The notes under the pieces are model-generated. The model saw only the letters and a program-made list of their open reading frames with translations, made no database searches and was not told the DNA's origin. From the IMG/VR virus record IMGVR_UViG_3300024346_000091, positions 1 through 52,426 of that record: a stretch of 52,426 nucleotides of DNA, one strand, 5' to 3'. Below, piece after piece: positions 9,902 through 34,669 of this stretch. Source of the DNA: a virus. The first letter of the stretch is position 1. Every line of letters begins with the position of its first letter. A program made the position numbers and the translations under genes.

Positions 9902-10896
9902 CACTTGTACCAATAAGTGAATTCGACATCGTCTACATAAGCTACGACGAACCAAATGCTGATGAGAATTGGCAAGACTTACTTGAAAAATGCCCGTGGG
10001 CAAAACGCAGCCATGGCGTATATGGTAGTGATGCTGCACACAAAGCAGCCGCTAAACTATCTGAAACAGACAGATTTATTACAGTTGATGCTGACAACAT
10101 TGTTGATCCTGAATTCTTTAACTTAGAACTTGACATGGATAAAGTTGGCCATCACGACGTAATCAGCTGGGCAGCGAAGAATGAAATTAACGGGCTTGTA
10201 TACGGAAACGGCGGCATCAAATGCTGGCCAAAGTATGTTGTTGAGCACATGCGCACACATGAGGCAGCACCAGAGAATGACAAAAGAGCGCAGGTTGATT
10301 TCTGTTGGAACATAAACTATGTGCAAATGAACAACGTTTATAGTCACATCTATAACAATGCTAGCCCACACCAAGCATGGCGGGCAGGCTTCCGTGAAGG
10401 CTGCAAGATGACGTTGGAAAATGGTGACGTTGTTGACAAGCGTGACATTAAAAAGATCCACCGTAAAAATTATCAGCGCCTACTTGTTTGGCAAAGCGCA
10501 GGGGCAGATGCGAAGAATGGCCTGTGGGCAATTTACGGTGCTCGACTAGGCTGCATTATGACTAACATGCGGCGCGATGAGTGGGATTGGACAAACGTGC
10601 GGGACTTTGAGTGGCTCAACCAATACTGGCGGGATCACGTTGCCCCTAGTTTTGCAGTGTCACACGCAACCGATCCAGGAAATCAGTTATGTGACCGTAC
10701 TGGTTATAACTGGAATTTGTCAGAACTCGAAACAGTAACAGACATGTTAGGGCAACAAATTCGCAACGAACTAAAACTAGAAATTGCTGATTTAGATGCA
10801 GAAGGAAGCAAGTTCTTCAAAGAGGTTTACATCAATCCTGCCCGTGTTCCGCCTATGACATTAGAGACTGACGTTACAAATGAGATTGATGAATGA
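9898..10896 (+). CDS. GT-A-like glycosyltransferase, phage type
   Basis: 332 aa with an AGAGGAAA site and ATGA overlap. The N-terminus (FDIVYISYDEPNADENW) and DRFITVDADNIVDPEFF (DxD around residues 63-65) fit a GT-A nucleotide-sugar transferase. GLVYGNGGIKCWPKYVVEHM and the ASPHQAWRAGFREGCKM segment are shared with the protein at 16538 (YGYGGAKLFPKQ, FNAWKSAFRECAKL), so the two are paralogues. The family recurs in marine T4-like phages. Acceptor unknown. Confidence 0.6.
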   Translation: MTLVPISEFDIVYISYDEPNADENWQDLLEKCPWAKRSHGVYGSDAAHKAAAKLSETDRFITVDADNIVDPEFFNLELDMDKVGHHDVISWAAKNEINGLVYGNGGIKCWPKYVVEHMRTHEAAPENDKRAQVDFCWNINYVQMNNVYSHIYNNASPHQAWRAGFREGCKMTLENGDVVDKRDIKKIHRKNYQRLLVWQSAGADAKNGLWAIYGARLGCIMTNMRRDEWDWTNVRDFEWLNQYWRDHVAPSFAVSHATDPGNQLCDRTGYNWNLSELETVTDMLGQQIRNELKLEIADLDAEGSKFFKEVYINPARVPPMTLETDVTNEIDE

Positions 10897-12446
10897 GTAA
10901 GAAATTAAATGACTTAGACTGGCATAAAGGCAAGGATGGTTACATATTTAACGACAGTGACAATGCTTCTAAAATTAAAGAATTGCTTGGCGGCACAGGT
11001 TGTGGATTTTGCCTAGCTAAATTCAAACAAGTCACGTTACACTTGGGAACGGGAATGACACACAGTTGTCACCACCCTGCCCCGCACAAAATTCCTCTTG
11101 ATGAACTAGCTGACAACCCTGCCGCACTGTTTAATACACAGCATCTCAAACATGCACGAAAGCAAATGCTTAACAACGAGCGCCCAAGCGAGTGTGATTA
11201 TTGTTGGCGCGTTGAAGATGAGGGCGGCACAAGTGATCGCACGTATAAGAGCCTTGAAAGTTGGGCACTGCCTGATCATGATCGCATTGCAGCATTGCGT
11301 GGCGACGAGGACATTTATCCAAGCTACCTTGAGGTCAGCTTTAGTAATGTATGCAACATGAAATGCACATACTGTGGTCCAGAGTATAGCAGCAAATGGG
11401 TTGAAGAGCTCAAAAAGGATGGGCCAGTCAAGCTGCTTGATGGAACAAAGCATGAGCAATGGTCACATGGCTATCAGGACTTAGACAGCCTGAACATCAA
11501 AAACCGTGACTACAATCCCTATGTTGAAGCATTTTGGAAATGGTTCCCACAAGCATTGCCACACTTGCGTCACTACCGCATTACAGGTGGCGAACCGCTT
11601 ATGAGCAAGGAAACATTTAAGAGCATGGATTGGCTAATTGACAATCCTAATACAGAACTAGAGTTCTCCATCAATAGCAACTTTAGTGTGCCCGACAAGC
11701 TATGGGACAAGTTTATTGAAAAGCTTGAAGTGCTCAAGGATGGCAAAGTCAAAAAAATTACTATCTATACCAGCATTGAAGGCTGGGGCGAACGCGCAGA
11801 GTATGCACGTACAGGGCTCAAGTTTGAATTATTACGCCAACGTTACGAGCAGATACTACAGATGGGTAACGTGCGTTGTGTCATCATGGCAGCATACAAT
11901 ATCTTTAGTGTTACGAGTATGCAGCAGATGTTGGAATGGCTGCATGAAATGAAGATTAAATATAACCCAAATGACTCAGCTGTCAAGTGGGAAAATGATA
12001 CAGGATTTCAGATTCAACCTGACAGCAATAGCTTTCAGGACCGCCAAGCTATTAATCCCAATCATCATTCGGTCGTTGGTGTTGACATTCCTTACTTGCG
12101 CCACCCTTCATTCCTTGACGCGCAAATCGCGACTGACGAACTAGTGTCTGAATTTATGCTTCCTACGATGAATTTCATGGCCAAGCATAACACATTCAAC
12201 CAATGGAATAGTCACCAAGGATTTGAAGATTTTGAGATTGAAAAATTCAAGCGTATTGTTATGCACCGTATGTACTACAATCGTGAAGGAAAGCAAACAC
12301 CAGAAGTTGAAATACAACGTGCAAAGTTTTACGAGTTTGTAAACACAATGGACAAACGCAGGAACACAGATTTCCTCAGTGTATTTCCAGAAATGGCAGA
12401 CTTTTATACTGAGTGCGAAGCTTGTTACAAGCGTGTATTTCCATAA
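10893..12446 (+). CDS. Radical SAM protein with N-terminal cysteine domain (twitch type)
   Basis: 517 aa, ATGA-coupled to the previous gene. The radical SAM cluster ligands are C154, C158 and C161 (CNMKCTYC) and the SAM-binding ITGGEP motif is at residues 231-235. An N-terminal cysteine-rich region (C37, C40, C59, C101, C104) with ARKQMLNNERPSECDYC may bind an auxiliary iron-sulfur cluster; its layout is shared with the proteins at 21648, 22838 and 24762. Such enzymes modify peptides, sugars or small molecules with a 5'-deoxyadenosyl radical. The 3' end overlaps the convergent dehydrogenase gene by 22 bases. Substrate unknown. Confidence 0.8.
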   Translation: MSKKLNDLDWHKGKDGYIFNDSDNASKIKELLGGTGCGFCLAKFKQVTLHLGTGMTHSCHHPAPHKIPLDELADNPAALFNTQHLKHARKQMLNNERPSECDYCWRVEDEGGTSDRTYKSLESWALPDHDRIAALRGDEDIYPSYLEVSFSNVCNMKCTYCGPEYSSKWVEELKKDGPVKLLDGTKHEQWSHGYQDLDSLNIKNRDYNPYVEAFWKWFPQALPHLRHYRITGGEPLMSKETFKSMDWLIDNPNTELEFSINSNFSVPDKLWDKFIEKLEVLKDGKVKKITIYTSIEGWGERAEYARTGLKFELLRQRYEQILQMGNVRCVIMAAYNIFSVTSMQQMLEWLHEMKIKYNPNDSAVKWENDTGFQIQPDSNSFQDRQAINPNHHSVVGVDIPYLRHPSFLDAQIATDELVSEFMLPTMNFMAKHNTFNQWNSHQGFEDFEIEKFKRIVMHRMYYNREGKQTPEVEIQRAKFYEFVNTMDKRRNTDFLSVFPEMADFYTECEACYKRVFP

Positions 12447-13642
12447 TGGATGACTTCAACATCAGCTGATTTAAACTTGCGCCAAGGGTCGACGACTACA
12501 CTACCAGTTGGTATATCACAATACATTGTCTGCACACCTTTACGGTATGTAACTTCACGGCTATGCGCTAGTAAGAACACAGCGGGACCAGTTGTAGTGC
12601 GATAATCGCCTGTTATAGGATCAACATATTCTGGCGTATGCCCTAACTCAGTGCAGTAATGTCCCACTAGCAGGCTATAGCTACCGTCAAGATATTCTAC
12701 ACCGGGCTTATATGCCTTGCCATGTATTACAACAGGCAGGCGATTCATTATAGCTTCACGACATAGACGATGGGCAAGCCTTAATGCTTGGCGTTCTCGC
12801 GCATTCATGATAGAGTCAAATAAATCGTAACCCAAGTCTAGTTCTTTTGCCATCCAGCGCAGCGCGATATTATCACGTGGGTGGCAAGCACCACCATCAC
12901 CCATACCAGCCGTCATATACTGTGGACCCATAATACGTTGAGTACTTTGTGCTAGCGCATCTGTAACGACGTCAACGTTGATGTTGCCTTGCGCTTCAGC
13001 AACGTCCTGAATCATGTTGACAAGTCCAATTTTTGCACTTATAAAGGTGTTATAGAAGATTTTGATACTCTCGCATTCGTCCCAAGTACCAACAACATAA
13101 CGCGGATCGTTATCCATAATGGTTTTGTAAAAGTCAATTAGCTGGCGAGCGTGCGATGTTTCGTCTCCATCTTCAGTACCAACCATTACCATCTCTGGGT
13201 TTACCATATCCCATTCAACACTGCCCATTGCAATCAAGTAAGGATTGTATACAAAGTTTGTGTTGGTGACGCGCCCCGCAAGTGTTCTTCTAGTTGTGCC
13301 AGGCAACACAGTGCTAATTAGCACTAGCAGCTGGTCTGCGTTCATATACTTGTTAGCCTCTTCCAAGCACTCTACTACCGCAGTATAATCAAAGTCACGA
13401 GGCTCTAGGTGCGCACTTGGTGTTGCACCACCATATTCAGCTTCGTGTGGTGTAGGCACTGCGATAAACACAATGTCACACCCATCTACGGCTTGACTGA
13501 TACTACTCTTTACGTTTACTAGGGTGCTAGTACGCGACTCTACATCATAGCCATTTACAATATGTCCTCTGCTTGCAACAACATTAGCGCAAGCCATGCC
13601 TAGTTTTCCTAAGCCTATAAATCCAATTTTATTCATTATCAT
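12425..13642 (-). CDS. UDP-glucose/GDP-mannose dehydrogenase family protein
   Basis: 405 aa; ATG at 13642 or 13636 both possible, neither with a clear ribosome site. The N-terminal Rossmann motif GFIGLGKLGM (residues 7-16) binds NAD. E191/K194/N198/K204 in ESIKIFYNTFISAKIG and the catalytic cysteine C253 in GGACHPRDN match the active site of nucleotide-sugar 4-electron dehydrogenases, which make uronic acids. The C-terminal third binds the nucleotide sugar. At about 400 residues it has the family's usual length. It probably produces an acidic nucleotide sugar for the surrounding transferases. Exact substrate (UDP-glucose, UDP-HexNAc or GDP-mannose) not determined. Confidence 0.8.
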   Translation of the reverse strand: MIMNKIGFIGLGKLGMACANVVASRGHIVNGYDVESRTSTLVNVKSSISQAVDGCDIVFIAVPTPHEAEYGGATPSAHLEPRDFDYTAVVECLEEANKYMNADQLLVLISTVLPGTTRRTLAGRVTNTNFVYNPYLIAMGSVEWDMVNPEMVMVGTEDGDETSHARQLIDFYKTIMDNDPRYVVGTWDECESIKIFYNTFISAKIGLVNMIQDVAEAQGNINVDVVTDALAQSTQRIMGPQYMTAGMGDGGACHPRDNIALRWMAKELDLGYDLFDSIMNARERQALRLAHRLCREAIMNRLPVVIHGKAYKPGVEYLDGSYSLLVGHYCTELGHTPEYVDPITGDYRTTTGPAVFLLAHSREVTYRKGVQTMYCDIPTGSVVVDPWRKFKSADVEVIHYGNTRL

Positions 13643-14861
13643 TGTGGAACGTGTTTACCAGGTTGTGTAGTAAATCCTCGTCCATTCTCCTTACATTCTT
13701 TGCTCTGTGGCGAGCGTTGTGTTTTAATACTGGCAACATGTCTTTAAGAACAAGTGCTAACTCCTCAGGAGTTTTTGATATAAACTCCTTTGCAGCATCA
13801 GTTATAGCGGTTATTCGTGTAGGTATGTCTTCAATCAAATCATACGATTCGTCAATCCATTTATCAAAAGTTTGATATCCTTGTTGGCGTAAAAATTCTA
13901 AGCTATGCGGATAGTTGTATATAACAAATGGTTGCAACATTTGCATAGGCTTGAAGGTTTTCTCTGAAAAGAACATGCGCTGATGTTTATGCTGGTCGCC
14001 ATAAAACGTTTCGTTTACAATATGCAAGTAGGAGTTCAAAAATTTGTCAAAACTAGCATCATGCACAGGATTAGTCTTGACATCAAGACCATCATCTATT
14101 ATAAGTGGTAGTTCTTTTTTAATCTTGGACAGTTTAGCTTTGTTGTAGTCGGGCAAACACGCCGGTAGATGCTCAAGGATAAACTTGGCGTTGGGCTTTG
14201 GGCCTAAATCAAAACTCATTAGGTTACCCTGCTTATGTCCCCACATCTTGTATACCATAGCTAGGCGACCCTGACTTGGGCGACGAGCCATCATTATAAA
14301 CTTATGGGGTCGTTGTTTTAGTGACTTGATGTCCTCAATTATAGTGTCAATATTGCTTTCTTGGTCAATAGATTGAAACCACATCTGGTTAACGTGTTTG
14401 AATGGAAGATTGGAGATAGGGTTGAGGTTGCCAGACACGACAATAAAATGTTCTATGCGCAAGCGCGGGTTGTTTTCACATACATCAAGAATCATACGAG
14501 TGTAATCGGTCCAGGACTCGCTTTCCCAATTGTCATAAATTATTATGCCTGCATTGCCCTCAACACAGTCGTCTACAACGTAGTCAGGAACATGTATTAA
14601 TGCGTAGCCGCTTAAATTGCGGTCTGCAAAATGCTTCAGAGGATATTCACAGCTAATAGGATAAAAGTAGAACTGATCTCTTTTAGCTGGTTCCCAATAT
14701 GTGCCCTTCGTGCGACCAAATGGTTGAGAAAACAACGAATTAACATGGAAAAAGATATCAGGGTCCGACCCTACAGTTTTTGACACATAGTCAATGTTGG
14801 CTTGGCTGATACCATTTCTGTATGTGTCATCAGACTCAAAATATAATTGAAGAGGTGGCAT
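13629..14861 (-). CDS. GT-B-like glycosyltransferase-related protein
   Basis: 410 aa from ATG 14861, chosen because GGAG (14870-14873) lies 8 bases upstream; an upstream ATG at 14897 has no such site. The C-terminal third contains FFSEKTFKPMQMLQPFV, then SLEFLRQQGYQTF and WIDESYDLI, a signature seen in many marine phage and giant-virus proteins. It resembles the nucleotide-sugar-binding C-terminal half of GT-B enzymes such as fucosyl- and exostosin-type transferases. No signal peptide. It shares a probable late promoter with the divergent carbamoyltransferase gene and overlaps the dehydrogenase start by 14 bases. Confidence 0.5.
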   Translation of the reverse strand: MPPLQLYFESDDTYRNGISQANIDYVSKTVGSDPDIFFHVNSLFSQPFGRTKGTYWEPAKRDQFYFYPISCEYPLKHFADRNLSGYALIHVPDYVVDDCVEGNAGIIIYDNWESESWTDYTRMILDVCENNPRLRIEHFIVVSGNLNPISNLPFKHVNQMWFQSIDQESNIDTIIEDIKSLKQRPHKFIMMARRPSQGRLAMVYKMWGHKQGNLMSFDLGPKPNAKFILEHLPACLPDYNKAKLSKIKKELPLIIDDGLDVKTNPVHDASFDKFLNSYLHIVNETFYGDQHKHQRMFFSEKTFKPMQMLQPFVIYNYPHSLEFLRQQGYQTFDKWIDESYDLIEDIPTRITAITDAAKEFISKTPEELALVLKDMLPVLKHNARHRAKNVRRMDEDLLHNLVNTFHNDNE

Positions 14862-14876
14862 ACTATTCACTCCGTT

Positions 14877-14906
14877 ACTAAATATATACGTATACAATTA
14901 TTTATG
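14877..14906. promoter_or_regulatory. Divergent late-promoter region
   Basis: On the minus strand CATAAATA (14906-14899) fits the NATAAATA late element and lies 38 bases from the start at 14861. On the plus strand ACTAAATA (14877-14884) lies 33 bases before the ATG at 14917. A perfect 10-base palindrome TATACGTATA (14885-14894) sits between them and could be an operator or simply AT-rich symmetry. This is the only divergent junction in the window. Confidence 0.45.
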
Positions 14907-14916
14907 AAAGATTCAA

Positions 14917-16410
14917 ATGATAAAATGGGGTTGGAGTGGAATGAGTCATGATGCTGCGCTTGCAGTTATTGCAGACGACAAATTAGTTTACGCTAGTCAC
15001 AGTGAACGTTACAGCCGCGTCAAAAACGACAAGCATATAAGCTTAAAGCAAATATCAGAAGCACTTGAATATGGTTACCCAGATGCAGTGTATTATTATG
15101 AAACACCTTGGTTAAAAAAGTGCCGCCAGTTTCAATCCGGGCAACGTGAACTGATTTGGAAAGAGAGTCCTCGTTCCTACTTCAAACATTTTGGCATTGA
15201 CATGAAGCATCAATCCACTCGCCATCACCACAGCCATGCAGCATACGGGTACTTTACTTCTGGCTTTGATAAGGCAGATGTATTGGTTATTGACAGTATT
15301 GGTGAATATGAAACACTTAGCTATTGGCGCGGCGAAGGCGACAAATTAACCAAAGTAGCCAGCCAAAATTATCCTCATAGTGTAGGACTTTGGTACAGTG
15401 CTATGACGCAGCGTCTTGGGCTCAAGCCACAAGAGCATGAATATATCTTAATGGGCATGGCAGCGTCAGGCAATGAAAGTAGATTTTATGATATTATTAT
15501 GAAAGACTTCTTTGTGCAATTACCAAGCAAACATAACTTTAATGTTGTTTTCAAAGAAAACTTACATCGCGGATGCATGAACTGGCGCCCTGAACTTAAC
15601 ACTGTGCAAGATTTAGCTGACATTGCAGCAGCAGTACAGGCAATTTATGAAGAGATACTTTTCGGGCTGCTCGAGTATACTAGACAATCGACAAATCAAA
15701 ATGTTGTCATAGTTGGTGGGTGCGCACTTAATTGTGTTGCTAATTTAGAAGCCTACCACCATTATGAGCAAGTTTGGGTACCGTCTAATCCGGGCGATGC
15801 AGGCAGTAGTGTAGGAGCAATACTTGCCCATCACCCTCAGCGTCTAATTATGCAAGATGCTTATTTAGGAACCGACATACCTGGCGACTACCCTATTGAT
15901 GATATTATGCACGATTTGTTAACAACTGGAGTAAGTGCGGTTGCATCTGGTCGGGCAGAATTTGGTCCTCGCGCACTAGGCAACCGTAGTATATTGGCGG
16001 ACCCACGTCTACATGATATAAAGGACCGTGTCAATACGCTTAAACAACGCGAGTCGTTTCGTCCATTTTCTCCAGCAGTTTTAGAAGGTCACGCCGCGCC
16101 ACTTTTCCAGATACCACATAAGGATTGGACTGCGCCATATATGCAATTTGCTCTATGGTGCAACGCGCCGAATGCTTACCCAGGTATAGTCCACATTGAT
16201 ACAACTAGCCGTGTACAAACGGTAGGAAAGACCAATAACTATTCACAAAGAGGCTTTCGCCGCCTGTTAGAGCGCTGGCATGGTGAAACAGGGTGCCCTA
16301 TGTTACTTAACACAAGCCTCAATGTAAAAGGTGAGCCCTTGGTAAATACACGGGAAGACGCAGTGCGATGGTCAAAATTGCATGGCGTTGAAGTAAGGAT
16401 GCCAAAATGA
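14917..16410 (+). CDS. Carbamoyltransferase (NodU/TobZ family)
   Basis: 497 aa. The family attaches a carbamoyl group from carbamoyl phosphate to sugars or antibiotics through a carbamoyl-adenylate. The N-terminal Kae1-like domain shows SHDAALAVIA (H11), SERYSRVKND and the metal-binding HHHSHAAYGYF (residues 103-107 and on), followed by GGCALNCVAN. The C-terminal YrdC-like domain shows GRAEFGPRALGNRSILADP, ESFRPFSPAVL and NTSLNVKGEPLV. Length is somewhat below the common 550-600 residues but both domains are present. It probably decorates a sugar assembled by the neighbouring enzymes. The start lacks a strong ribosome-binding site. Confidence 0.88.
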   Translation: MIKWGWSGMSHDAALAVIADDKLVYASHSERYSRVKNDKHISLKQISEALEYGYPDAVYYYETPWLKKCRQFQSGQRELIWKESPRSYFKHFGIDMKHQSTRHHHSHAAYGYFTSGFDKADVLVIDSIGEYETLSYWRGEGDKLTKVASQNYPHSVGLWYSAMTQRLGLKPQEHEYILMGMAASGNESRFYDIIMKDFFVQLPSKHNFNVVFKENLHRGCMNWRPELNTVQDLADIAAAVQAIYEEILFGLLEYTRQSTNQNVVIVGGCALNCVANLEAYHHYEQVWVPSNPGDAGSSVGAILAHHPQRLIMQDAYLGTDIPGDYPIDDIMHDLLTTGVSAVASGRAEFGPRALGNRSILADPRLHDIKDRVNTLKQRESFRPFSPAVLEGHAAPLFQIPHKDWTAPYMQFALWCNAPNAYPGIVHIDTTSRVQTVGKTNNYSQRGFRRLLERWHGETGCPMLLNTSLNVKGEPLVNTREDAVRWSKLHGVEVRMPK

Positions 16411-16521: not shown

Positions 16522-16537
16522 TAATTAAGGAGTAAAC

Positions 16538-17245
16538 ATGCTTGATGTATTTTTTCTAAGCTATGACGAGCCATTCGCTGATGACAACTTTAAGATATTA
16601 CAGATGTTTGCGCCCAATGCCAAACGGGTGCATGGCGTCAAAGGTATCTTTGACGCTCATCAAGAATGTGCCCGCCAAAGCAATACTAGCCATTTCTATG
16701 TAATTGACGCAGACGCAATTATTGAAGAGGAATTCAGCTTTAAATTCACGCCACAGTCTGATCAGTTTATTTACGGCACAGTGCCAGAGACTGATTGTGT
16801 ATACGTATGGCGCAGTCGCAATCCAGTCAATGATTTGATTTACGGTTACGGTGGTGCAAAACTGTTTCCCAAGCAAAAACTGATTGATGCAGAACACTGG
16901 AATGTAGACATGACGACGACTATTGGAGCACCCTTTGTACCGAAATTTCAGATCAGCAATATTACTGCTTTCAACACAGACCCATTTAATGCCTGGAAAA
17001 GTGCGTTTCGAGAGTGCGCAAAGTTGGCATCAGCTATCATTCCAAATGGAGACAATACTGACAATGAGTATAGACTCAAGGTGTGGTGTGAACGGGGTAG
17101 AGGCAGGCCATTTGGAGACTATGTTGTACTCGGTGCTCAGCAAGGCAGTGATTTTGGAGAACGCTACAAAGATAAGTCACACATCCTTACTAAAATAAAC
17201 GACTTTGACTGGTTAAGAGAGATATTTAATTCACATGCTAACTAA
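16538..17245 (+). CDS. GT-A-like glycosyltransferase, paralogue of 9898 gene
   Basis: 235 aa with AAGGAG upstream. VFFLSYDEPFADDNF, FYVIDADAIIEEEF (DxD near residues 63-65), LIYGYGGAKLFPKQ and FNAWKSAFRECAKL line up with the 332-aa protein at 9898, but the last 90 residues of that protein are missing. A metal-dependent nucleotide-sugar transferase is likely. It is the first gene behind the 16493 promoter and overlaps the next by 11 bases. Confidence 0.6.
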   Translation: MLDVFFLSYDEPFADDNFKILQMFAPNAKRVHGVKGIFDAHQECARQSNTSHFYVIDADAIIEEEFSFKFTPQSDQFIYGTVPETDCVYVWRSRNPVNDLIYGYGGAKLFPKQKLIDAEHWNVDMTTTIGAPFVPKFQISNITAFNTDPFNAWKSAFRECAKLASAIIPNGDNTDNEYRLKVWCERGRGRPFGDYVVLGAQQGSDFGERYKDKSHILTKINDFDWLREIFNSHAN

Positions 17246-20693: not shown

Positions 20694-20698
20694 AAAGT

Positions 20699-20715
20699 CT
20701 ATACTTCAAGTATAG
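20699..20715 (+). other. Short hairpin just before a start codon
   Basis: CTATACTT-C-AAGTATAG is a perfect inverted repeat in the 26-base gap between the oxygenase stop and the ATG at 20720. No ribosome-binding site is visible between the hairpin and the ATG, so it could control translation of the radical SAM gene or be an RNA-processing signal. It is GC-poor and has no U-tract, so a terminator is unlikely. Confidence 0.4.
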
Positions 20716-20719
20716 CAAC

Positions 20720-26165: not shown

Positions 26166-27430
26166 GCTTATGCGCAATCGACGATAAGAACGAAAAACAA
26201 CTGATGGTGATTTGGGACTTAGGCCGCCGCTGCACATTTGCATGTAGCTATTGTCCGCCTCACCGCAAAAACAATTGGAGTGACACAGCTAGCCTTGAGT
26301 CACTTATAGCAACAGCAGACAACCTTGAGCGTTACAGCGAAATTTATAATGCTAAACGCAATGAACGTTTCCGCGTTGCAGCTAGCTTTACTGGCGGCGA
26401 GCCTACAGTTAACCCTGCGTTCTTTCCGTTCCTTGAATACTTACAGGAAAACTATCCACATTGGAAACGCACACTGACAACAAATGGCTTCTACAGCGAG
26501 CGCAAGTTGCGCACTGTTATGGCCAACACAAACTTTACAACAGTGAGCTGGCATTGTGAAGGTATGCCAGTACAAAAAGAACGTGTACGTAAAAATCTAG
26601 AGATAATGCACAAGGAAGGCTATGGCTTTAAAATCAATATCATGTTCCATGAGCGCGATGATTATTTCCAAGAATGTGTTGAGTTAGCTGAATGGTGTGA
26701 TGAGCTTGGAATAAGCTATACACCTAGAATAATTGGCGATCAGGGCGACATTAAACAGGGCATTAAAGACAAAACTGTTCATGAATACACACAAGAGCAA
26801 GTAGACTGGATGACACGCTATTGGGATGCAAAGAAGGCGAAGGCTGACAAGCCAGCAGTAACAGCAAGTAACCCTGTAGCATTAGCTGGCCCACCTGGCG
26901 GCACAATGGCGATGGCAGTCACTGCACCAAAAAAGCAAATTGGGCAAAAGATTGGTCGTCCTTGTTGTGGCGGACGTGAAATGGATCTTAAAGATGATGA
27001 TGAATGGAGCGTAGGCACGTTTGTCGAAAACAATAACTTCCAAGGATGGAGTTGTATGATCAATTGGTACTTCCTTTACATCCACCAAGAGATTGACAAA
27101 ATTTGGCACCACCAAACATGCCAAGTCAATCTTGAAGGTAAAGTAGGTCCTATTTGTAATGTTAGCAACTTTGCTGAATACTGTGATGACTTAGAAGCAA
27201 AAATGAACACTGGTAACATTCCATATATCCGTTGTCCTAAAACCCACTGTGGTTGTGGACTTTGTGTTCCTAAAGCTAAACACGATGGATTGGCAAACGA
27301 AATATTTAAGCGCCATGCGCCAGGTATTCAGCCTGAGCTAATGGAGCGCCAAGAAGTTGACATTGCAAGTGGATCATTAAAGAAACTGGTCTACAAATTT
27401 GATGAGGAAAATGGAAATGAAACTATCTGA
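26162..27430 (+). CDS. Radical SAM protein, FxGWxC subfamily, paired with PP-loop gene
   Basis: 422 aa, ATGA-coupled. C24, C28 and C31 (CTFACSYC) bind the radical SAM cluster; SFTGGEPTV is the SAM motif; TTNGFYSERKL and VSWHCEG follow. A low-complexity Ala/Pro/Gly linker (about residues 223-260) precedes NNFQGWSCMINWYFLYI and a cysteine-rich ending (CNVSNF, RCPKTHCGCGLCVPK). The same N- and C-terminal signatures occur at 29311. Both copies are followed by a QueC-like gene, suggesting the pair works together. Confidence 0.82.
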   Translation: MSLCAIDDKNEKQLMVIWDLGRRCTFACSYCPPHRKNNWSDTASLESLIATADNLERYSEIYNAKRNERFRVAASFTGGEPTVNPAFFPFLEYLQENYPHWKRTLTTNGFYSERKLRTVMANTNFTTVSWHCEGMPVQKERVRKNLEIMHKEGYGFKINIMFHERDDYFQECVELAEWCDELGISYTPRIIGDQGDIKQGIKDKTVHEYTQEQVDWMTRYWDAKKAKADKPAVTASNPVALAGPPGGTMAMAVTAPKKQIGQKIGRPCCGGREMDLKDDDEWSVGTFVENNNFQGWSCMINWYFLYIHQEIDKIWHHQTCQVNLEGKVGPICNVSNFAEYCDDLEAKMNTGNIPYIRCPKTHCGCGLCVPKAKHDGLANEIFKRHAPGIQPELMERQEVDIASGSLKKLVYKFDEENGNETI

Positions 27431-28118
27431 TAACTTTGGACAGTCAATTGACTTTGACATAGATCCAAAGTATAAAAAAATTGGAGTAAACCTAAGTGGT
27501 GGCGCTGACTCTGCTATACTATTCTATATGGTGTGCGAATATCTCAAAACAAACAACCGCACTGATACAAGTGTATCAGTTATGTCGTGTGCAAATGACC
27601 TCAAGCACAGATGGAACGTGCGCAAAGCAGCAGACGTTATTAATTACACAATTGACAAGTTAAAGTTTAATCCAGTTGACACGCATTACAGTTATTACAG
27701 GGATAAACAAGAAGTTGGATATTTCCACGAAATTGAATCAAAATTGTTTGTCGATAACAGAGTAGAAATGATCGTAAGCGGCATTACAGCTAACCCTTGG
27801 GTAGATGCCAACATTGTTGATAGTAAAGGACGCACAATAAATCTTAATGAGACAGGACTGCACGATCGCAACACAGGTACGTCGGACGAGCTCAAAGTAG
27901 GCGATGGCGGACTGGCATTTTATACACCGTTCATTAATACAGACAAGCGCTTTGTTGCAGCAATGTATGACCATTATGGTGTGCGTGATGGTCTGTTCCC
28001 GCTCACTCGTAGTTGCGAAGCTATTCCTGAGGGTGACTTTAATCCTGAGTTTGAAAAAGAACCTTGCGGCACATGTTGGTGGTGTTTAGAACGCAAATGG
28101 GCATTTGGTGAGTTTTAA
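27417..28118 (+). CDS. QueC/ExsB-like PP-loop ATP pyrophosphatase
   Basis: 233 aa from the ATG 9 bases after GAGG; earlier in-frame starts at 27399-27411 are less well placed. NLSGGADSAILFY (SGGxDS at 27-32) is the PP-loop that adenylates substrates. The C-terminus EPCGTCWWCLERKWAFG, with an earlier SCE, matches the zinc-binding cysteine arrangement of QueC, the 7-cyano-7-deazaguanine synthase. Related N-type PPases make amides or nitriles from acids. No QueD or FolE was found in the window, so a deazaguanine pathway is not shown; it may instead modify an island product. Confidence 0.65.
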   Translation: MKLSDNFGQSIDFDIDPKYKKIGVNLSGGADSAILFYMVCEYLKTNNRTDTSVSVMSCANDLKHRWNVRKAADVINYTIDKLKFNPVDTHYSYYRDKQEVGYFHEIESKLFVDNRVEMIVSGITANPWVDANIVDSKGRTINLNETGLHDRNTGTSDELKVGDGGLAFYTPFINTDKRFVAAMYDHYGVRDGLFPLTRSCEAIPEGDFNPEFEKEPCGTCWWCLERKWAFGEF

Positions 28119-28777
28119 TGGCACGGTTAGTAACATTTGGATGCAGTTTTATGGCTGGGCATGGTATACATGACGTATGGGATTCTGCGTCCCAATTAAG
28201 TATGAACGGCCACAGTCAATATTCTTGGGTCGAAACTCTAGGTAAATTACTCAAAATAGACGTCGTAAATCAAGCAGTTGCAGGCTCAAGCAATAAAGAA
28301 ATATCATATCTAGTTCAAAATTTCGAGTACCAGCCAGGTGATAGGGTTATAATAAATTGGACATTTAAGGAACGGTCATGTATCATAGGTCTGCGTGACG
28401 GTCACGCCCCACATTATCATCTAAGTATACACTACAAAGACGACATAAATCTGAATTGGCAGGACTATCATACTAACAATCAAAATTTGGATTTCGAATC
28501 CATTATGGCCATTACAAGTGCTGACTGGGTTTTAGAAAACCAAAACGTCATGCGCCGGCACCTGTTTCTAAGGGAGCCGCCAGGCCATGTTCAGTATATT
28601 CTTCCGCATCAATATCGTGAATGGCTTGCACAAAGGACAATCCCTGTCAAATTTGACTGGTACAATGCAAAACGGGGATGTGATGGTAGCCACCCAGATT
28701 TAGCAGCATATACAAATTATGCACATCAAGTTTACGAATGGATAAAAGAAAATGAAGATATTAATAAGTGGCAATAA
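28118..28777 (+). CDS. SGNH-hydrolase-like protein
   Basis: 219 aa, TAATG-coupled. LVTFGCSFMAGHGIHD is a block I candidate (nucleophile Ser in GCS), VNQAVAGSSNKEISYLV matches the block II/III pattern, and GCDGSHPDLAAYTNYAHQVYEW near the C-terminus has the D-x-x-H-like pair expected in block V. That makes it a better match to the family than the copy at 18408. It could deacylate a glycan or be a phage glycan-binding relative. Confidence 0.6.
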   Translation: MARLVTFGCSFMAGHGIHDVWDSASQLSMNGHSQYSWVETLGKLLKIDVVNQAVAGSSNKEISYLVQNFEYQPGDRVIINWTFKERSCIIGLRDGHAPHYHLSIHYKDDINLNWQDYHTNNQNLDFESIMAITSADWVLENQNVMRRHLFLREPPGHVQYILPHQYREWLAQRTIPVKFDWYNAKRGCDGSHPDLAAYTNYAHQVYEWIKENEDINKWQ

Positions 28778-29318
28778 CGAATATGGACTTAGCGCAGCAA
28801 TAGGTCGGCTATATCCTGGTGAAGTTGAGTTTGCAAGTCGCGCAACAGGATACGACTTATGCGACCATGCAGGCAGACAAGCGTTCTCCGAGCGGTCTAC
28901 GCAAGCTGATGTAGTCGTGGTATGCGCAGCGCTATATCAATTCCAGCAGACAGTGCTTTTAGAAAGCGTAAGCAAAGCATGTCGTGCAGTCGGCGCAAGC
29001 CCGCACATTATTGTGATAGGTAGCACAACAGACCGTGTCAAGAATGGCAAAGCTTGGCTGTACAATGCAGAAAAGAAAGCATTGCGTGACTTTAGCAACA
29101 CATTGGCAATTGGCGGCGTATGGTCAGACGAGCTTCCAAAAGTAAGCTACATCAGCTTTGGCACACTAAGCAACAATCAAGAAAAGCATCCTGACCGTAA
29201 ATGTATGGACATTGATGAAGCCGCAGGCTACATTAAGTGGTTGATTTCACAACCAAAGTATGTTAATATAAACGAAATAAGCATCGACCCGATGCAAGGA
29301 GACAGTAATTATGGATGA
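28752..29318 (+). CDS. Short-chain dehydrogenase-like protein, compact
   Basis: 188 aa, overlapping the previous gene by 26 bases. ILISGNNEYGLSAAIG resembles an altered TGxxxGxG nucleotide-binding loop; DVVVVCAAL is in the NNAG position; IVIGSTTDRVKNG is followed by YNAEKKALRDF, the catalytic Y-x-x-x-K. It is shorter than usual (about 250 residues), so the substrate-binding loop seems reduced. It may oxidise or reduce a sugar intermediate, using NAD(P). Confidence 0.5.
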   Translation: MKILISGNNEYGLSAAIGRLYPGEVEFASRATGYDLCDHAGRQAFSERSTQADVVVVCAALYQFQQTVLLESVSKACRAVGASPHIIVIGSTTDRVKNGKAWLYNAEKKALRDFSNTLAIGGVWSDELPKVSYISFGTLSNNQEKHPDRKCMDIDEAAGYIKWLISQPKYVNINEISIDPMQGDSNYG

Positions 29319-30474
29319 TGACTTAAAATGGTCTGAGTATGACTTTACTCAGGTACCATACGACGACTTAGTCAGCGTCGGGCAACGCACAATGCTCTAT
29401 CGTGACTTGTTCACAGTAAGCTGGTTGTTGGGTCGCTTCTGCAATTACCGTTGCAGCTATTGTTGGCCATATGCTCGTAGCAACACAAAGGATCATCGTC
29501 CAACAGAGTTATGCACAGCTACGATTGATGAGATTAAACGCCAAGCAAGGGAAAACGGATTCAACAGTTTTCACTTCTCCCTAAGCGGCGGCGAACCTAC
29601 ATTCCATCCAGGCTACTTAGATATTATGAAGCACCTAAGTGACGATGCGCATAACACAAATTATACATCAGTACACATGACGTCAAATTGCAGCCGCCCT
29701 ATGAAATGGTTTGAGACATATGTTGAGTACGCAAAGCCATTTCACCGCGCCAGCATTACAGCAAGCTTACACACAGAGCATGTTAACACGCCTGAGAAGA
29801 TGCAAGATTTTGCAGACAAGCTAATTTACTGCCAAGAGCATGACGTGCAAGTTACTATCAACATGGTAATGCGACCAGAACATTTTGAAGATGACTGGAC
29901 AAACTCGCTATTCTTCCACGAGCAAAACATTAACGTAACACTCAAGCCACAGTCAGACCCTACCGCTAGCCGCGTCGTAGACGGCTATACAGAAGATATG
30001 TTGCAACGTCTATATAATGGTATGCCGCAACGCGCATACACAGAAGCAAAACGTGTATGGTCAGACCGTCCTAAGCCTAACTTTAAAATGGATAAGGAAA
30101 GCGAGCACTACAAAGAACACGCAAGCGTTCCATGGCACATGCAAATTGAATTCCGTGACAAGCAAGGTAAAGCTTGGTATATGGACCAAGCAGAGCGCTT
30201 CAATGCGTTCAACTTTAACAACTTCAAAGGATGGAGTTGCAGCTCAGGCTTCCGCAGCATTATTATCCGTGAGCCTGATGGCAGCATTAAGCGCAGCTAT
30301 AGTTGTCATGATGCGCCCTTAGGAAATATTGAGACAGGCTTCAAGTTGTTTGACAAGCCACAGCTATGCACAACGCCAGCTTGTGTGAGCAGCGCAGACA
30401 GCAAGATACCTAAGCGTGTACCAGGAACACCAGTTGCACTTTATCCTGGCGATACAAGTTGGAAAGATGAGTGA
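29311..30474 (+). CDS. Radical SAM protein, FxGWxC subfamily, paired with PP-loop gene
   Basis: 387 aa, overlapping the previous gene by 8 bases. C44, C48 and C51 (CNYRCSYC) and LSGGEPTF are the radical SAM signatures; SWLLGRFC parallels IWDLGRRC of the 26162 protein. NNFKGWSCSSGFRSIII and late cysteines (YSCHDAPLG, LCTTPACVS) resemble the other two subfamily members. Its stop overlaps a late promoter box that leads to the second QueC-like gene. Confidence 0.82.
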   Translation: MDDDLKWSEYDFTQVPYDDLVSVGQRTMLYRDLFTVSWLLGRFCNYRCSYCWPYARSNTKDHRPTELCTATIDEIKRQARENGFNSFHFSLSGGEPTFHPGYLDIMKHLSDDAHNTNYTSVHMTSNCSRPMKWFETYVEYAKPFHRASITASLHTEHVNTPEKMQDFADKLIYCQEHDVQVTINMVMRPEHFEDDWTNSLFFHEQNINVTLKPQSDPTASRVVDGYTEDMLQRLYNGMPQRAYTEAKRVWSDRPKPNFKMDKESEHYKEHASVPWHMQIEFRDKQGKAWYMDQAERFNAFNFNNFKGWSCSSGFRSIIIREPDGSIKRSYSCHDAPLGNIETGFKLFDKPQLCTTPACVSSADSKIPKRVPGTPVALYPGDTSWKDE

Positions 30475-30480
30475 TAAATA
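30473..30480 (+). promoter_or_regulatory. Late promoter box GATAAATA
   Basis: GATAAATA fits the NATAAATA late element. It overlaps the stop of the radical SAM gene and lies 37 bases before the ATG at 30518, in one of the few real intergenic gaps of the island. The downstream genes may therefore be expressed late as well as by read-through. Confidence 0.5.
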
Positions 30481-30517
30481 CTCAATAAGGCGTTGCCAAT
30501 GAAAAAGAGAACACATT

Positions 30518-31156
30518 ATGACAAAATACACTGAAACACCGTTTACAATAACAATTCCTGCTGATACTAAGGTAATTGGCATGCAAATGAGTGGAGGTGC
30601 AGACAGCACACTCGCTGCCTATTTGTATGCAAAGGTAATTAAAGAAAATAACCTAGATGTTAAACTAAAACGTATAACATTCAGCTTCTCAGACAAGTAT
30701 GATACTTTTGAAACTGCGAGACTTGCGCAAGACAATATTACTGCATTACTTGAATTTGATCCTTGGGAAGAAGCACATGAAGTGTTGTACAAAGAAAAGA
30801 AACTACATTCAACTATTGAGCAATTACAGTATTTGTTTGACGGCGGACTAATCGACCATACTGTTTACAGTAGAACTATGAACCCATCTGTTAGTTTGAT
30901 ACCTGACCCAGAAAACAATCGGGTCTTGGATAGAGACGCGCCAATTGAAGACAGTTCATCAGACATATCAGAGCCATTTTATAATTTTAAAAAGGACGTG
31001 CTACTTCAAAAATATATTGACTTAGGCATTTATGATTCATTATTTGCGCAAACTGTTTCTTGTGATACAGACAAAGAAAATGGCTTAGTACCTCCTTGTA
31101 ATGAATGTTGGTGGTGCAAAGAACGAGCATGGGCTATAACACAGGTTGGTAAATGA
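30518..31156 (+). CDS. QueC/ExsB-like PP-loop ATP pyrophosphatase, second copy
   Basis: 212 aa. QMSGGADSTLAAY (residues 25-30) is the PP-loop. The C-terminus VPPCNECWWCKERAWA with an earlier VSCDTD matches the zinc cysteines of the 27417 protein (CxxCWWCxERxWA). The two copies are diverged outside these motifs, so they probably act on different substrates or steps. Preceded by a late promoter box and followed by an ATGA-coupled methyltransferase gene. Confidence 0.62.
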   Translation: MTKYTETPFTITIPADTKVIGMQMSGGADSTLAAYLYAKVIKENNLDVKLKRITFSFSDKYDTFETARLAQDNITALLEFDPWEEAHEVLYKEKKLHSTIEQLQYLFDGGLIDHTVYSRTMNPSVSLIPDPENNRVLDRDAPIEDSSSDISEPFYNFKKDVLLQKYIDLGIYDSLFAQTVSCDTDKENGLVPPCNECWWCKERAWAITQVGK

Positions 31157-31854
31157 CGGTTCATCCACGTAGCAGTGATACAAACCGATTTCCGTTGTTT
31201 ACTCAATTCTTTGAAGATCTTGATGGAAAATCCATTCTTGATTACGGCTCTGGCAGTGGCAACTTACTATACTTTTCTGACGGTGCAATAGCTGAACAAA
31301 ATTATATAGGTATTGATGTATCGTCTGATGCGATTAAACAAGCAACAGACGAATTTCCTACCGCTACATTTTTGCATAATGATCGCTATAATTGGATGTA
31401 CAACCATAACGGCACCCAAGCGTTTATATATCCGTCTATTACACAGCAAGTTGATTACGTTTGGGCTTATAGTGTTTTCAGCCACACTGATTACAATGAA
31501 TTGCAGAAAGCTATTAAGTGGTTCAAAAGCCTTGGCGCATCAAAAATAGTATTAAGCATATTAGATATAAATGGTAAAGACATGTTAAAATGGTTTTCCA
31601 TTAAACGAATTGAATCATATGGATCATGTTATGATCTAATGTCACTGTCGCCAGATACTGATATTGCGTACTTACTAAATAATGATGTAATTGTGGACAA
31701 CAGTCAGACTTGTGCCCATATAGACTGTGAATTTTTCATTGCACTATATAATTTGGATTGGTTAATTACACAATTGCAAGCAGATAATATAAGTGCAACG
31801 ATTGCACATTGCGATGACAGCTATGTTCCATTTTTGGTAATCAATAATGTATAA
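31153..31854 (+). CDS. Class I SAM-dependent methyltransferase
   Basis: 233 aa. SILDYGSGSGNLLYF (about 27-41) is motif I of the SAM-binding fold, YIGIDVSSDAIKQA places the acidic residue at strand 2, and VDYVWAYSVFSHTDY matches the motif IV/post-IV region seen in small-molecule and sugar methyltransferases. The N-terminus is short, so no extra domain is present. Acceptor unknown. Confidence 0.7.
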   Translation: MTVHPRSSDTNRFPLFTQFFEDLDGKSILDYGSGSGNLLYFSDGAIAEQNYIGIDVSSDAIKQATDEFPTATFLHNDRYNWMYNHNGTQAFIYPSITQQVDYVWAYSVFSHTDYNELQKAIKWFKSLGASKIVLSILDINGKDMLKWFSIKRIESYGSCYDLMSLSPDTDIAYLLNNDVIVDNSQTCAHIDCEFFIALYNLDWLITQLQADNISATIAHCDDSYVPFLVINNV

Positions 31855-32425
31855 AAAATTAACACCATCATTTGAAATCGACCTGCCGCAATTGGTAAGC
31901 GAATGCAACGCTATTCTCAATTTAGAGGATACTGTTAATTGCTTGCATATGCACAATCAAGTAGGTCTTACATATGCGAATGAAGCATGTAACAACAAAT
32001 TTTATGACGCAGTAGGTAGCCTAGACTTAGATTACGAACGATGGACAGAAGAAGAAATAGCAGCAGGATCACCACCGCCCGCCAGGCAAGAAAAAATGGA
32101 CGAATCAGAATTTAATAAAATCGTACCTAACTTGTCAGGAATGTATATATACGATTTGCTATCTAATATGAAAAATGAATATGACATTGGGCGTACTAGA
32201 ATAATGGTGCTAGAAAGTAAGCAGTGCTTGACATGGCATCAAGATAGTACACCTAGATTACATATCCCGATCATCACACACGATGGATGCAAAATGGTTT
32301 GGGAAAATACAACTGCATCACTTATGCCAGGATTGCTGTATTGGGCTGACACTCGTCACCCACATACTGCATTTAACGGTAGCTATAAGCAACGCATTCA
32401 CTTAGTAGCTACAGTAAAGGAATAG
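31847..32425 (+). CDS. Aspartyl/asparaginyl beta-hydroxylase-like 2OG oxygenase
   Basis: 192 aa. H131, D133 and R137 in CLTWHQDSTPRLHIPI, then MPGLLYWADTRHPHTAFNGS (H171 or H173) and R183 in QRIHLVATV form the iron and 2-oxoglutarate site in the order seen in AspH-type cupin hydroxylases. It probably hydroxylates a protein side chain or small molecule. It overlaps the methyltransferase by 8 bases. Confidence 0.7.
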   Translation: MYKKLTPSFEIDLPQLVSECNAILNLEDTVNCLHMHNQVGLTYANEACNNKFYDAVGSLDLDYERWTEEEIAAGSPPPARQEKMDESEFNKIVPNLSGMYIYDLLSNMKNEYDIGRTRIMVLESKQCLTWHQDSTPRLHIPIITHDGCKMVWENTTASLMPGLLYWADTRHPHTAFNGSYKQRIHLVATVKE

Positions 32426-32429
32426 TAAA

Positions 32430-33107
32430 ATGACAGCCGGATGGAAGTGCCTTGCAAGAGACCAAGTTTGGGTAAACGATAATCTGTTACCAGACAGTGT
32501 AGTAGATATGATTTTAAATTCTTGGAAAGACTCAGCAGAGTATCAAGAAGTTGCGCAAGCTGGAATGAAATATCTTGTGACCCCTACAAACTATCACTAT
32601 AATGGTGTAACTAACAAAATCGCGCAGTACGATTATATTCAAAATAGAGTTCTTACGGAAATGAATGAATTTTATCCTGCTATTTTTGGCAAGGCAGCAC
32701 CAGTTGAAAATTTATCATACATGCAATATTTTATGAAAACTGCGGTACCCAATGTAAGCTTTTACGACCTGCATTCTGAACCAAGCATTGCAGAAGATGA
32801 ACATTTTGGCGACGCTGTATTCATGTTGTACTTGAGCGACGAGGTTGACGGTGAGATTGTATTCCCGTCAGAATCTGACGCGCAGCCACACGTTACACCC
32901 GCGTATGAGGAAACATTGAAAGTAATGAGTGTTGACTACGTGCCAACAACTGTATCAATAACACCAAAGAAGAATAGGTGCGTTGTATTACGGACCGGCA
33001 CTCCGCACTATGTTAACATATGCAGTGGTGAGCGGTATTGTATATCAGGCATGAGTTTTGCGGACGGCAGCTATAAAGACAGATGGAAAAGCTTTGATAA
33101 CAAATGA
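32430..33107 (+). CDS. Prolyl-hydroxylase-like 2OG oxygenase with HxE variant
   Basis: 225 aa with AAGGAA before ATG. The strand FYDLHSEPS places H115 and E117 where the family usually has H-x-D; FMLYLSDEVDGEIVFP is the next strand pair of prolyl 4-hydroxylase-like proteins, with distal H193 (TPHYVN) and R202 (ERYCISG). The Asp-to-Glu change may alter metal binding or activity. Substrate unknown. Confidence 0.6.
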   Translation: MTAGWKCLARDQVWVNDNLLPDSVVDMILNSWKDSAEYQEVAQAGMKYLVTPTNYHYNGVTNKIAQYDYIQNRVLTEMNEFYPAIFGKAAPVENLSYMQYFMKTAVPNVSFYDLHSEPSIAEDEHFGDAVFMLYLSDEVDGEIVFPSESDAQPHVTPAYEETLKVMSVDYVPTTVSITPKKNRCVVLRTGTPHYVNICSGERYCISGMSFADGSYKDRWKSFDNK

Positions 33108-34669
33108 TTAAAAAATCAATACAACTTGCAACAATATCAACATCACACTTCTCGCCTTGGCTACCGTATGCAGCAGGGTGCTTGATTAGCTATTGCAACC
33201 GTGACCCAGTTATCGCGTCACAATATGAATTCTCTGAGCCAATATTTGAATACCGCAAGTTAAGTGAATACACTGAACAGTTGAGCGAAGCAGATTATCT
33301 TGGATTAACATGTTATGTTTGGAATCAAATTTATAACGACAAGCTAGCAGCGATGTATAAGAGACACCGCCCAGACGGCATAGTTATATATGGCGGCCCA
33401 AATATTCCTGAGGAAGAAGATGTTGCCAATGCATTTATTGCGGCGCGTCCATATCTTGATGTTATGTTTGTAGGGCCAGGTGAGCGCAACTTTGCAGCTT
33501 GGTTAAAGGGCGAAGGCGACGAGGGTACTGTTACAAGAGAAAAGTATAATGTCAGCAACATGCGGGCATATCAAATTAAAGGCGATGACTTGCCTACACC
33601 GTATACTGATTTATTGTTTGATGACATTTTCAAAAGAAGCGGAATGTTAAAGGTCCCATTCGAGACTAACCGCGGGTGCCCATATAGTTGTGCGTTTTGT
33701 GATTGGGGCGGACAAAGTAGAAGCAAGTTAAGTGTATTCGACGAGGACATTGTCTTGCGCCAACTTGATTACATTTATAAACAGCGCAACGTGTCTGAAC
33801 TTGAATTACTTGATGCAAACTTTGGAGTTTTGCCCCGAGACGTGTCACTTGTTGAGTATATGATTGAACTGCAAGAATTACATGACAATAAGATCAAATT
33901 AGGATACGCTGGCTTAGCAAAGAATGGCAGCAAGCACTTGCCTAGGATTTTAGACTTGTTTTCTAAGTCAATGAACTTAGATCAACGCAACCAAAAACTG
34001 AGCTTCCAATCTCATACACCGCTTGTACTAGACAATATAGATCGCAGCAACATTGACAACAGCAAATTGTTGCTATTGCTTGATGAATGTAAGCGTACGT
34101 CAGTTGTAACTACTAGTGAACTTATTATTGGAATGCCAGGTGAAACTGCTGATACATGGCTTGATAGTATTGCTACTAATCATAATTACGGCATTAACTA
34201 TATCAGGACATACATTTTTAACTATGTACCAAACACATCATTATATTCAGCTGAGTATAGAAAAAAGTTCGCAATTAAGAGTAAAAAGCTACGCTTCCCA
34301 TATACATTTGGTGGACTTAGTTACAAATTCTTGCATAATAATCCTGGGCACACTTCAACTGACTTTTCTGATTATGAAGAATTTGAGATCACAACTGAAA
34401 TGTATAGTTGGGATATTGATGAGTTAGTTAAGATGTCTGACTATCATTGGTGGTATCATAATATGTGGAACGGCGGCGTATTGCGTCCAGTAGTAACTGA
34501 TGTTAAATCTGAAGTATTAATGTTCTATAAATATATTGACCAGATGCCATTTATGAAAAGTTTAGTAGAAAAGAATAGAAGCATTGTTAGGCGATTGTAC
34601 AGCGCAGACGAACCTGAGGAAATAACTGATTTGGAAACTTATCTATATTATACCAAGTGTATGCGGTAA
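33104..34669 (+). CDS. B12-dependent-type radical SAM protein
   Basis: 521 aa, ATGA-coupled. C192, C196 and C199 (CPYSCAFC) start the radical SAM barrel after a 180-residue N-terminal domain shaped like a cobalamin-binding Rossmann domain (ADYLGLTCYVWN, GIVIYGGPNIPEE, VMFVGPGERNFAAWL). Whether B12 binds is uncertain, as the DxHxxG loop is not evident. ELELLDANFGVLPRD and IIGMPGETADTWL are typical of this class, which methylates unactivated carbons or phosphorus. The reading frame continues in apparent coding sequence after the TAA at 34667-34669. Confidence 0.75.
   Translation: MIKKSIQLATISTSHFSPWLPYAAGCLISYCNRDPVIASQYEFSEPIFEYRKLSEYTEQLSEADYLGLTCYVWNQIYNDKLAAMYKRHRPDGIVIYGGPNIPEEEDVANAFIAARPYLDVMFVGPGERNFAAWLKGEGDEGTVTREKYNVSNMRAYQIKGDDLPTPYTDLLFDDIFKRSGMLKVPFETNRGCPYSCAFCDWGGQSRSKLSVFDEDIVLRQLDYIYKQRNVSELELLDANFGVLPRDVSLVEYMIELQELHDNKIKLGYAGLAKNGSKHLPRILDLFSKSMNLDQRNQKLSFQSHTPLVLDNIDRSNIDNSKLLLLLDECKRTSVVTTSELIIGMPGETADTWLDSIATNHNYGINYIRTYIFNYVPNTSLYSAEYRKKFAIKSKKLRFPYTFGGLSYKFLHNNPGHTSTDFSDYEEFEITTEMYSWDIDELVKMSDYHWWYHNMWNGGVLRPVVTDVKSEVLMFYKYIDQMPFMKSLVEKNRSIVRRLYSADEPEEITDLETYLYYTKCMR

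Follow-up and report, generated by a model that had tools for sequence, protein, structure and literature searches.

A widespread phage operon with a conserved core of radical SAM enzymes and a small protein as candidate substrate

Phages laden with radical S-adenosylmethionine (SAM) genes have been noted as an oddity for 15 years. What do so many radical enzymes do together in one phage? The question is raised by a 52,426-base virus fragment from IMG/VR (IMGVR_UViG_3300024346_000091; this whole stretch is called the window), in which nine radical SAM genes lie between positions 10893 and 34669. The original prediction took them for a single complete modification pathway of exceptional density. 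Here we describe about ten genes that form a defined core, kept in fixed order and under strong purifying selection across hundreds of environmental phage contigs, with three or four core radical SAM enzymes and a protein of 75 amino acids (aa). The system is a widespread, defined phage operon with a testable candidate substrate, and these phages probably make one modified product. Genes are named by their first position and lie on the plus strand unless stated otherwise.

All nine radical SAM genes are real. Each open reading frame (ORF) contains exactly one CxxxCxxC motif and matches the Pfam family Radical_SAM (PF04055) with 30.3-53.6 bits against a gathering score of 29.5. A six-frame search for PF04055 returned eight genes above the cut-off and 24738 slightly under it. 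Position 24762, already named in the original prediction, is the better and likely start of the latter ORF because homologues start at the same methionine. Four of the enzymes, 10893 (10893-12446), 21648 (21648-22841), 22838 (22838-23938) and 24738 (24738-26165), are of the N-terminal twitch type, scoring 316, 384, 212 and 420 bits with NF033640 (cut-off 170). Three are of the FxGWxC type by sequence and alignment, the motif lying in a cysteine-rich C-terminal region: 20720 (20720-21661; PF04055, 46.9 bits), 26162 (26162-27430; FxGWxC-A) and 29311 (29311-30474; FxGWxC-B; PF04055, 53.6 bits). In the alignment, the C-terminal cysteines of 19063 (19063-20145; PF04055, 40 bits) resemble those of a SPASM domain; Pfam SPASM (PF13186) has no match in 19063 and gives 20.2 bits in the N-terminus of 24738, under its cut-off of 21.5. 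The B12-like assignment of 33104 (33104-34669) held in part. The protein matches the KedN5-type B12 radical SAM family NF033712 with 129.9 bits, and at a cut-off of 700 it would be a distant relative only and not a member. The IMG/VR scan with this B12-type enzyme found no relative.

The equivalogs for viperin, MoaA and QueE were not reached (best scores 43 of 180, 38 of 284 and 27 of 206 bits, respectively). Sequence searches of the PDB with core profiles returned nothing for 24738, 16538 and 17235, and viperin alone for 29311 (E 0.003). An AlphaFold model of 29311 built from eight sequences was poor outside the barrel (predicted local distance difference test, pLDDT, 59), and its Foldseek rows (MoaA, lipoyl synthase, BlsE) were set aside. 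The twitch domain family NF033640 exceeded its cut-off in only one of 274 genomes from the class of G014, so that the cellular context gives no clue to its function. Rare in these bacterial genomes, the N-terminal twitch family is very common in viral contigs, and this NCBI family may be largely viral.

The density of radical SAM genes is not chance, since related cultured large phages (244-490 kb) carry 0, 0, 1, 4, 4, 5 and 6 per genome, whereas 40 relatives of the 24738 locus with full flanks carry 5-13 within 21 kb (median 9). Among cultured controls, Campylobacter phage CP220 alone attains this level, with 11. Searches of cultured phages with 26162, 29311, 33104, 27399 and the 75-aa protein gave no match.

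Relatives of the window reach 202 kb and encode a family B DNA polymerase, nearest to those of the jumbo T4-like phages Phosso, Atu_ph07 and Vibrio 2.275.O (43-49% identity). The window is therefore a fragment of a T4-like phage. Its left flank contains the fibre-side genes 3962 and 4541, both with matches among phage families (for one of them, a tail fibre protein), and the cluster adjoins these genes. From 17235 to 33104 all genes share one strand, and most of them overlap their neighbours by 1-34 bases, a pattern as in one translationally coupled operon. Listed in the conserved order, the core set comprises a predicted GT-A fold glycosyltransferase (16538-17245), 17235 (17235-18191), the 75-aa protein (18188-18415), radical SAM enzymes 19063 and 24738, ATP pyrophosphatases of the QueC-like kind (one or two), 26162, a short NAD(P)-epimerase or short-chain dehydrogenase/reductase (SDR)-like protein (28752-29318) and 29311. 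By motif in the alignment, 17235 is probably a SAM-dependent methyltransferase-like Rossmann protein. The SDR-like protein, with a weak match to the FabG-like phrog_3142, is 77-84% identical in two contigs and common (16 of the 40 full-flank loci).

We searched IMG/VR for co-occurrence of the radical SAM set, and the result favours a pathway: the core enzymes do occur together. Scans with 24738 and 29311 yielded 556 and 500 confirmed loci; the best 80 of each were kept (73-84% identical), hence the counts favour kin of the window. Around 24738, 38 of the 40 full-flank loci contain 19063, 31 contain 16538, 31 contain 17235, 30 contain 29311 and 27 contain 26162. Among 26 contigs of at least 100 kb, picked by the 24738 or the 29311 family, the 29311 type is present in all 26, the 24738 type (E <1e-200) in 25 and 26162 in 8; each carries 8-22 radical SAM genes. 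Twelve IMG/VR contigs encode the rare family of 26162 (64-84% identity), and all 12 contain 5-15 radical SAM genes. In nine of these, the close contigs aligned with the window, 24738 is 66-84% identical and the gene order equals that of the window: glycosyltransferase 16538, 17235, radical SAM enzymes 19063, 24738 and 26162, QueC-like gene, 29311 and thyA.

Thus the claim of a single complete pathway stands for a recurring operon of fixed order with core radical SAM enzymes, and falls for the nine enzymes as one complete set. The core enzymes are 19063, 24738 and 29311, with 26162 common. Lineage-variable are 20720 (3 of 40 full-flank loci), 21648, 22838 and 10893 (ortholog in 12 of 80 24738-type loci), and 33104 is without an ortholog found. 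As judged by sequence comparison, there is one co-inherited pathway, but its core has only three or four radical SAM enzymes, the other five being variable or window-specific. In close relatives, 26162 and the QueC-like genes are flanked by two diverged N-terminal twitch families (G010:161351-162667 and 157512-158771, minus strand) that the window lacks.

The original prediction had overlooked the 75-aa gene (18188-18415) and both QueC-like genes. The 75-aa frame shares 4 bases with 17235 and 8 with 18408. Homologues lie between 17235 and 19063 in 64 of 80 24738-type loci, with a median identity of 73%. Used as sole bait, the protein identified 459 viral loci encoding a homologue. All of the 80 kept contain a radical SAM gene, and a 19063-type enzyme lies within 3.5 kb in 64 of the 64 with enough sequence. 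Pfam and NCBIfam searches with the 75-aa protein gave no match. It is conserved along its full length, with an aromatic-rich conserved C-terminal half. The protein is not universal, since G010/G011, G005/G006 and G004 keep the radical SAM core without it, and in the distant phage G013 it ends ~14 residues early. The gap also contains further conserved small ORFs (22-93 aa, in other frames or on the opposite strand), which we discarded as shadows of this gene.

Compared with G001, the ratio of nonsynonymous to synonymous substitution (dN/dS) is 0.055-0.10 for 16538, 17235, the 75-aa gene (0.08), 19063, 24738, 26162 and 27399, at a dS that is high and partly saturated. The core genes have correlated distance matrices (r 0.2-0.81, mostly above 0.35; permutation p 0.001-0.017), an argument for joint inheritance that is confounded in part by shared phage ancestry. 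The core is also found in G013, a 161-kb contig (PAAV01000055.1; C1, L059-L066) binned in the 'Chloroflexi' metagenome-assembled genome (MAG) NAT137, with identities to the window of 52% (24738), 64% (29311), 46% (19063) and 39% (26162) and about 20 radical SAM or radical SAM-like frames. Read from the sequence, the contig encodes tail-sheath-like and terminase-like proteins; its structural genes do not match those of the window except for one fibre segment. It is a probable T4-like phage misbinned in this MAG. The core in G013 reflects either module transfer between phage lineages or deep ancestry. A scan of bacterial genomes for homologues gave three loci, one being the G013 contig and another a contig from a Methylophilaceae MAG (L057, CAJIZS010000002.1) that looks like a phage, with structural-type genes and a lone FxGWxC radical SAM gene.

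What might such an operon make? We tentatively favour a radical-tailored glycoconjugate, made by the phage from one polycistronic operon with a conserved core. The GT-A enzymes would attach a sugar, and the radical SAM enzymes would modify unreactive C-H positions in that sugar or in its carrier. QueC-like enzymes may use ATP to activate a carboxylate or amide, and the 75-aa protein may serve as acceptor, substrate or partner. Further radical SAM enzymes, hydroxylases, the carbamoyltransferase and sugar-nucleotide enzymes would be interchangeable tailoring cargo. The product would decorate the host envelope or the virion. The genes, their order, their co-inheritance, purifying selection and the GT-A fold are shown by the data, and from them we infer each of these chemical steps, what the product is and where it goes, and the part played by the 75-aa protein. 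A glycoconjugate is favoured because of the GT-A fold of 16538, the sugar genes in a variable slot, the QueC-like proteins and an Fe-S carrier.

The AlphaFold model of 16538 (pLDDT 91) places it in the GT-A fold, with a best Z of 12 and a root-mean-square deviation of 2.5 over 136 residues (Foldseek, VIA-align), and the protein has a DAD motif. Structural matches include B4GALNT1, ThuS/SunS, WrtF and SpsA. Because the rows also include IspD/MobA-like nucleotidyltransferases, sugar transfer is no more than likely. A GT-A-like paralogue (9898-10896), identified by alignment with the 16538 family, lies beside the tail-fibre-side genes, a position kept in 8 contigs. In the variable slot upstream of the core the window carries a gene of the UDP-glucose/GDP-mannose dehydrogenase family (12425-13642, minus strand; PF03721, PF00984) and one of the O-carbamoyltransferase family (14917-16410; PF16861 156 bits and PF02543 125 bits, both above cut-off; 7 of 9 close contigs, 10 of 80 24738-type loci). 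Relatives have a DegT aminotransferase, epimerases, a sugar C-methyltransferase, and a cupin isomerase or CMP-sugar cytidylyltransferase in this slot. The QueC-like proteins 27399 (27399-28118) and 30518 (30518-31156) pass the QueC profile PF06508 with 23.8 and 24.5 bits against a cut-off of 22, and keep the SGGADS PP-loop and, at the C-terminus, the cysteines of CxxCWWC in alignment. QueD is found in 10 of the 26 large contigs, never near the cluster; the QueC-like genes are thus without a linked QueD. An A-type Fe-S carrier, present in 11 of the 26, is consistent with a supply of Fe-S enzymes.

Several points weigh against a glycoconjugate. The sugar-nucleotide genes of the variable part may come from a neighbouring surface-polysaccharide module, and the core has no obvious exporter, flippase or ligase. 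No core radical SAM enzyme exceeds the cut-off of any characterised equivalog, sugar-modifying ones included. Shared phage ancestry accounts in part for the correlated core-gene trees, and near-duplicates among the 26 large contigs (G025-G027; G035-G037) bring the independent number nearer to 22. Finally, the tightest-linked non-enzyme is the small protein, and a peptide substrate fits at least as well.

The last point leads to the strongest alternative, a system akin to ribosomally synthesised and post-translationally modified peptides (RiPPs). Here the 75-aa protein would be a ribosomal precursor or small protein substrate of 19063, 24738 and other radical SAM enzymes. These would cross-link or modify it, the glycosyltransferase and hydroxylases would add groups, and the product would be a modified peptide or virion protein. 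Radical SAM enzymes with SPASM or twitch domains usually modify peptides. The constant neighbourhood of a 19063-type enzyme in loci chosen by the 75-aa protein alone speaks for this reading, as do the coupling of the 75-aa gene to its neighbours and its conserved aromatic-rich C-terminal half. The matches of 16538 include the peptide S-glycosyltransferases SunS/ThuS, tied with other GT-A rows, and phages Atu_ph07 and Phosso carry peptide-maturase-like radical SAM enzymes together with a ~300-aa protein, beside a homologue of 3962. Against it, precursor cores are usually variable, whereas the 75-aa protein is conserved over its whole length, and it is missing or shortened in the phages named above despite their radical SAM core. 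A RiPP recognition element, protease or exporter was not recognised in Pfam scans, although no search was aimed at them, and QueC-like enzymes are a poor fit for a simple RiPP. We consider this alternative unlikely, yet one to be taken seriously. Rather less probable still is the fuller claim that hundreds of uncultured large phages encode a self-contained pathway in which several radical SAM enzymes modify the 75-aa protein and a sugar is added to it as well; this would be a previously undescribed viral RiPP-like or modified-virion-protein system with new chemistry.

In other phages, glycosyltransferases and radical SAM enzymes take part in DNA hypermodification. The glycosyltransferase, carbamoyltransferase, QueC-like and radical SAM enzymes might likewise build a base modification against restriction, as the QueC-like genes and a thymidylate synthase adjoining the cluster in five contigs would allow. 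The window's own ThyA (39061) fits the ordinary phage thymidylate synthase type, and QueD is confined to the 10 contigs mentioned, away from the cluster. The cluster itself adjoins tail-fibre genes, with no replication genes on its glycosyltransferase side. A search for TET/JBP in the 26 large contigs gave no match, but the control was equally silent. We regard a role in DNA modification as improbable. The same holds for a core that serves the infected host by making or repairing a cofactor or small metabolite, an auxiliary metabolism linked to Fe-S. The QueC-like genes, the low-score MoaA/viperin-like similarity of the radical SAM enzymes and the A-type Fe-S carrier would suit it; against it stand the glycosyltransferases in the core, and no known cofactor pathway was matched above cut-off. 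That unrelated auxiliary metabolic genes have gathered in a hypervariable host-recognition region without any joint product is very improbable, and strongly disfavoured for the core, for although the region beside tail fibres is known to be hypervariable (PMC7029224), and although five of the nine radical SAM genes are variable or window-specific with 26162 in just 8 of the 26 large contigs, this is contradicted by the fixed core order, the near-universal co-occurrence in hundreds of loci and purifying selection.

The remaining genes of the region are mostly variable. The original prediction named a glycosyltransferase (so classed here by fold), a carbamoyltransferase and oxygenases in the cluster, and all are present. 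The oxygenases are an Asp/Asn beta-hydroxylase-like 2-oxoglutarate (2OG) oxygenase (31847-32425; PF05118, 34.4 bits) and a 2OG-Fe(II) oxygenase-like protein (32430-33107; PF13640, 21.9 bits, under the cut-off of 27), preceded by a class I methyltransferase (31153-31854; PF08242, 39.8 bits). A further variable protein is hydroxylase-like by sequence (20142-20693; no Pfam match; homologues in 4 of 9 close contigs). Two variable proteins are SGNH-hydrolase-like by motif, 18408-19070 (homologues in 2 of 9 close contigs) and 28118-28777 (no Pfam match). The protein at 13629-14897 (minus strand) matches neither Pfam nor PHROG, and that at 23905-24765 has no Pfam match and a weak one to phrog_4635. 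Past the end of the region as first drawn, more hydroxylase-like proteins are encoded at 36606-37319 and 34845-36037 (Asp/Asn hydroxylase, prolyl-hydroxylase-like), with no homologue among nine relatives; 34845-35342 is a window-specific, prolyl-hydroxylase-like 2OG-Fe(II) oxygenase (PF13640, 53.8 bits). A fatty-acid desaturase-like protein with histidine boxes lies at 37979-38599 on the minus strand, and 7 relatives have a similar short ORF. The right flank contains thymidylate synthase, dihydrofolate reductase, an ATPase and an exonuclease.

The role of phage radical enzymes is now open to expression and mass-spectrometry tests. A product that proved to be a modified peptide, protein or glycan would represent a new kind of viral chemistry at the phage-host surface.

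How does this operon compare with known systems? In the open-access literature (subscription papers and preprints were outside our scope) we found no description of a phage radical SAM/RiPP or radical SAM/tail-fibre system, nor of the core order, the 75-aa protein or the product. The density as such has precedents and is not exceptional as first supposed. The Campylobacter phages CP220 and CPt10, T4-related like the window, encode 11 and 12 radical SAM proteins (Timms et al. 2010, PMC2853527), with five-gene radical SAM clusters and nucleotide-diphospho-sugar transferases in an interchangeable module. Unlike in the window, the 30.6-kb stretch of CP220 has no best match of the N-terminal twitch type (one weak cross-hit, 18.9 bits), and hidden Markov models of 26162 and 29311 match it weakly. 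CP220 has a glycine amidinotransferase, and its annotation shows neither the small protein nor the core order, nor any QueC-like gene. Profile scans recognised no glycine amidinotransferase, the mark of the CP220-type cluster, in the window; a protein resembling it by sequence was seen in the distant phage G013. The T4-like environmental genome TARA_ERS488813_N000010 (183 kb), with 12 radical SAM genes and an A-type Fe-S carrier (Nishimura et al. 2017, PMC5332604), is quite possibly the same system, compared by description only. It was reported in terms of Fe-S related genes, and an argument on Fe-S supply was made for marine T4-like genomes; operon, core order, small protein and product are not described there (PMC5332604). 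Pelagimyophages have cassettes of radical SAM genes and glycosyltransferases beside tail fibres in their host-recognition regions; the authors, who did not analyse the cassettes, propose O-chain modification (PMC7029224). Phages rich in radical SAM genes are also known from Tasman Sea viromes (PMC7150976). In the cultured Vibrio phage K566 (L055, 161.5-168.3 kb), another tractable case, N-terminal twitch radical SAM genes alternate with glycosyltransferase-like genes. Agrobacterium phage Atu_ph07 (gp165-gp172; L311:12909-19647) and Sinorhizobium phage Phosso (L312:9272-17015) encode several radical SAM proteins, whose best matches are DynA/PapB/DarE-like, and a ~300-aa protein that ends in CHxSCHASCHxSRSRR (CHSSCHASCHNSRSRR and CHTSCHASCHSSRSRR). 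This mini cluster is, from its sequence, likely a radical SAM protein-modification system. It differs from the window in its radical SAM families, in the CHxSCH repeats at the end of that protein and in having no GT-A/QueC core. As in the window, its radical SAM genes adjoin a homologue of the fibre-side gene 3962, and with a smaller cluster at a matching address Atu_ph07 and Phosso are tractable cultured models.

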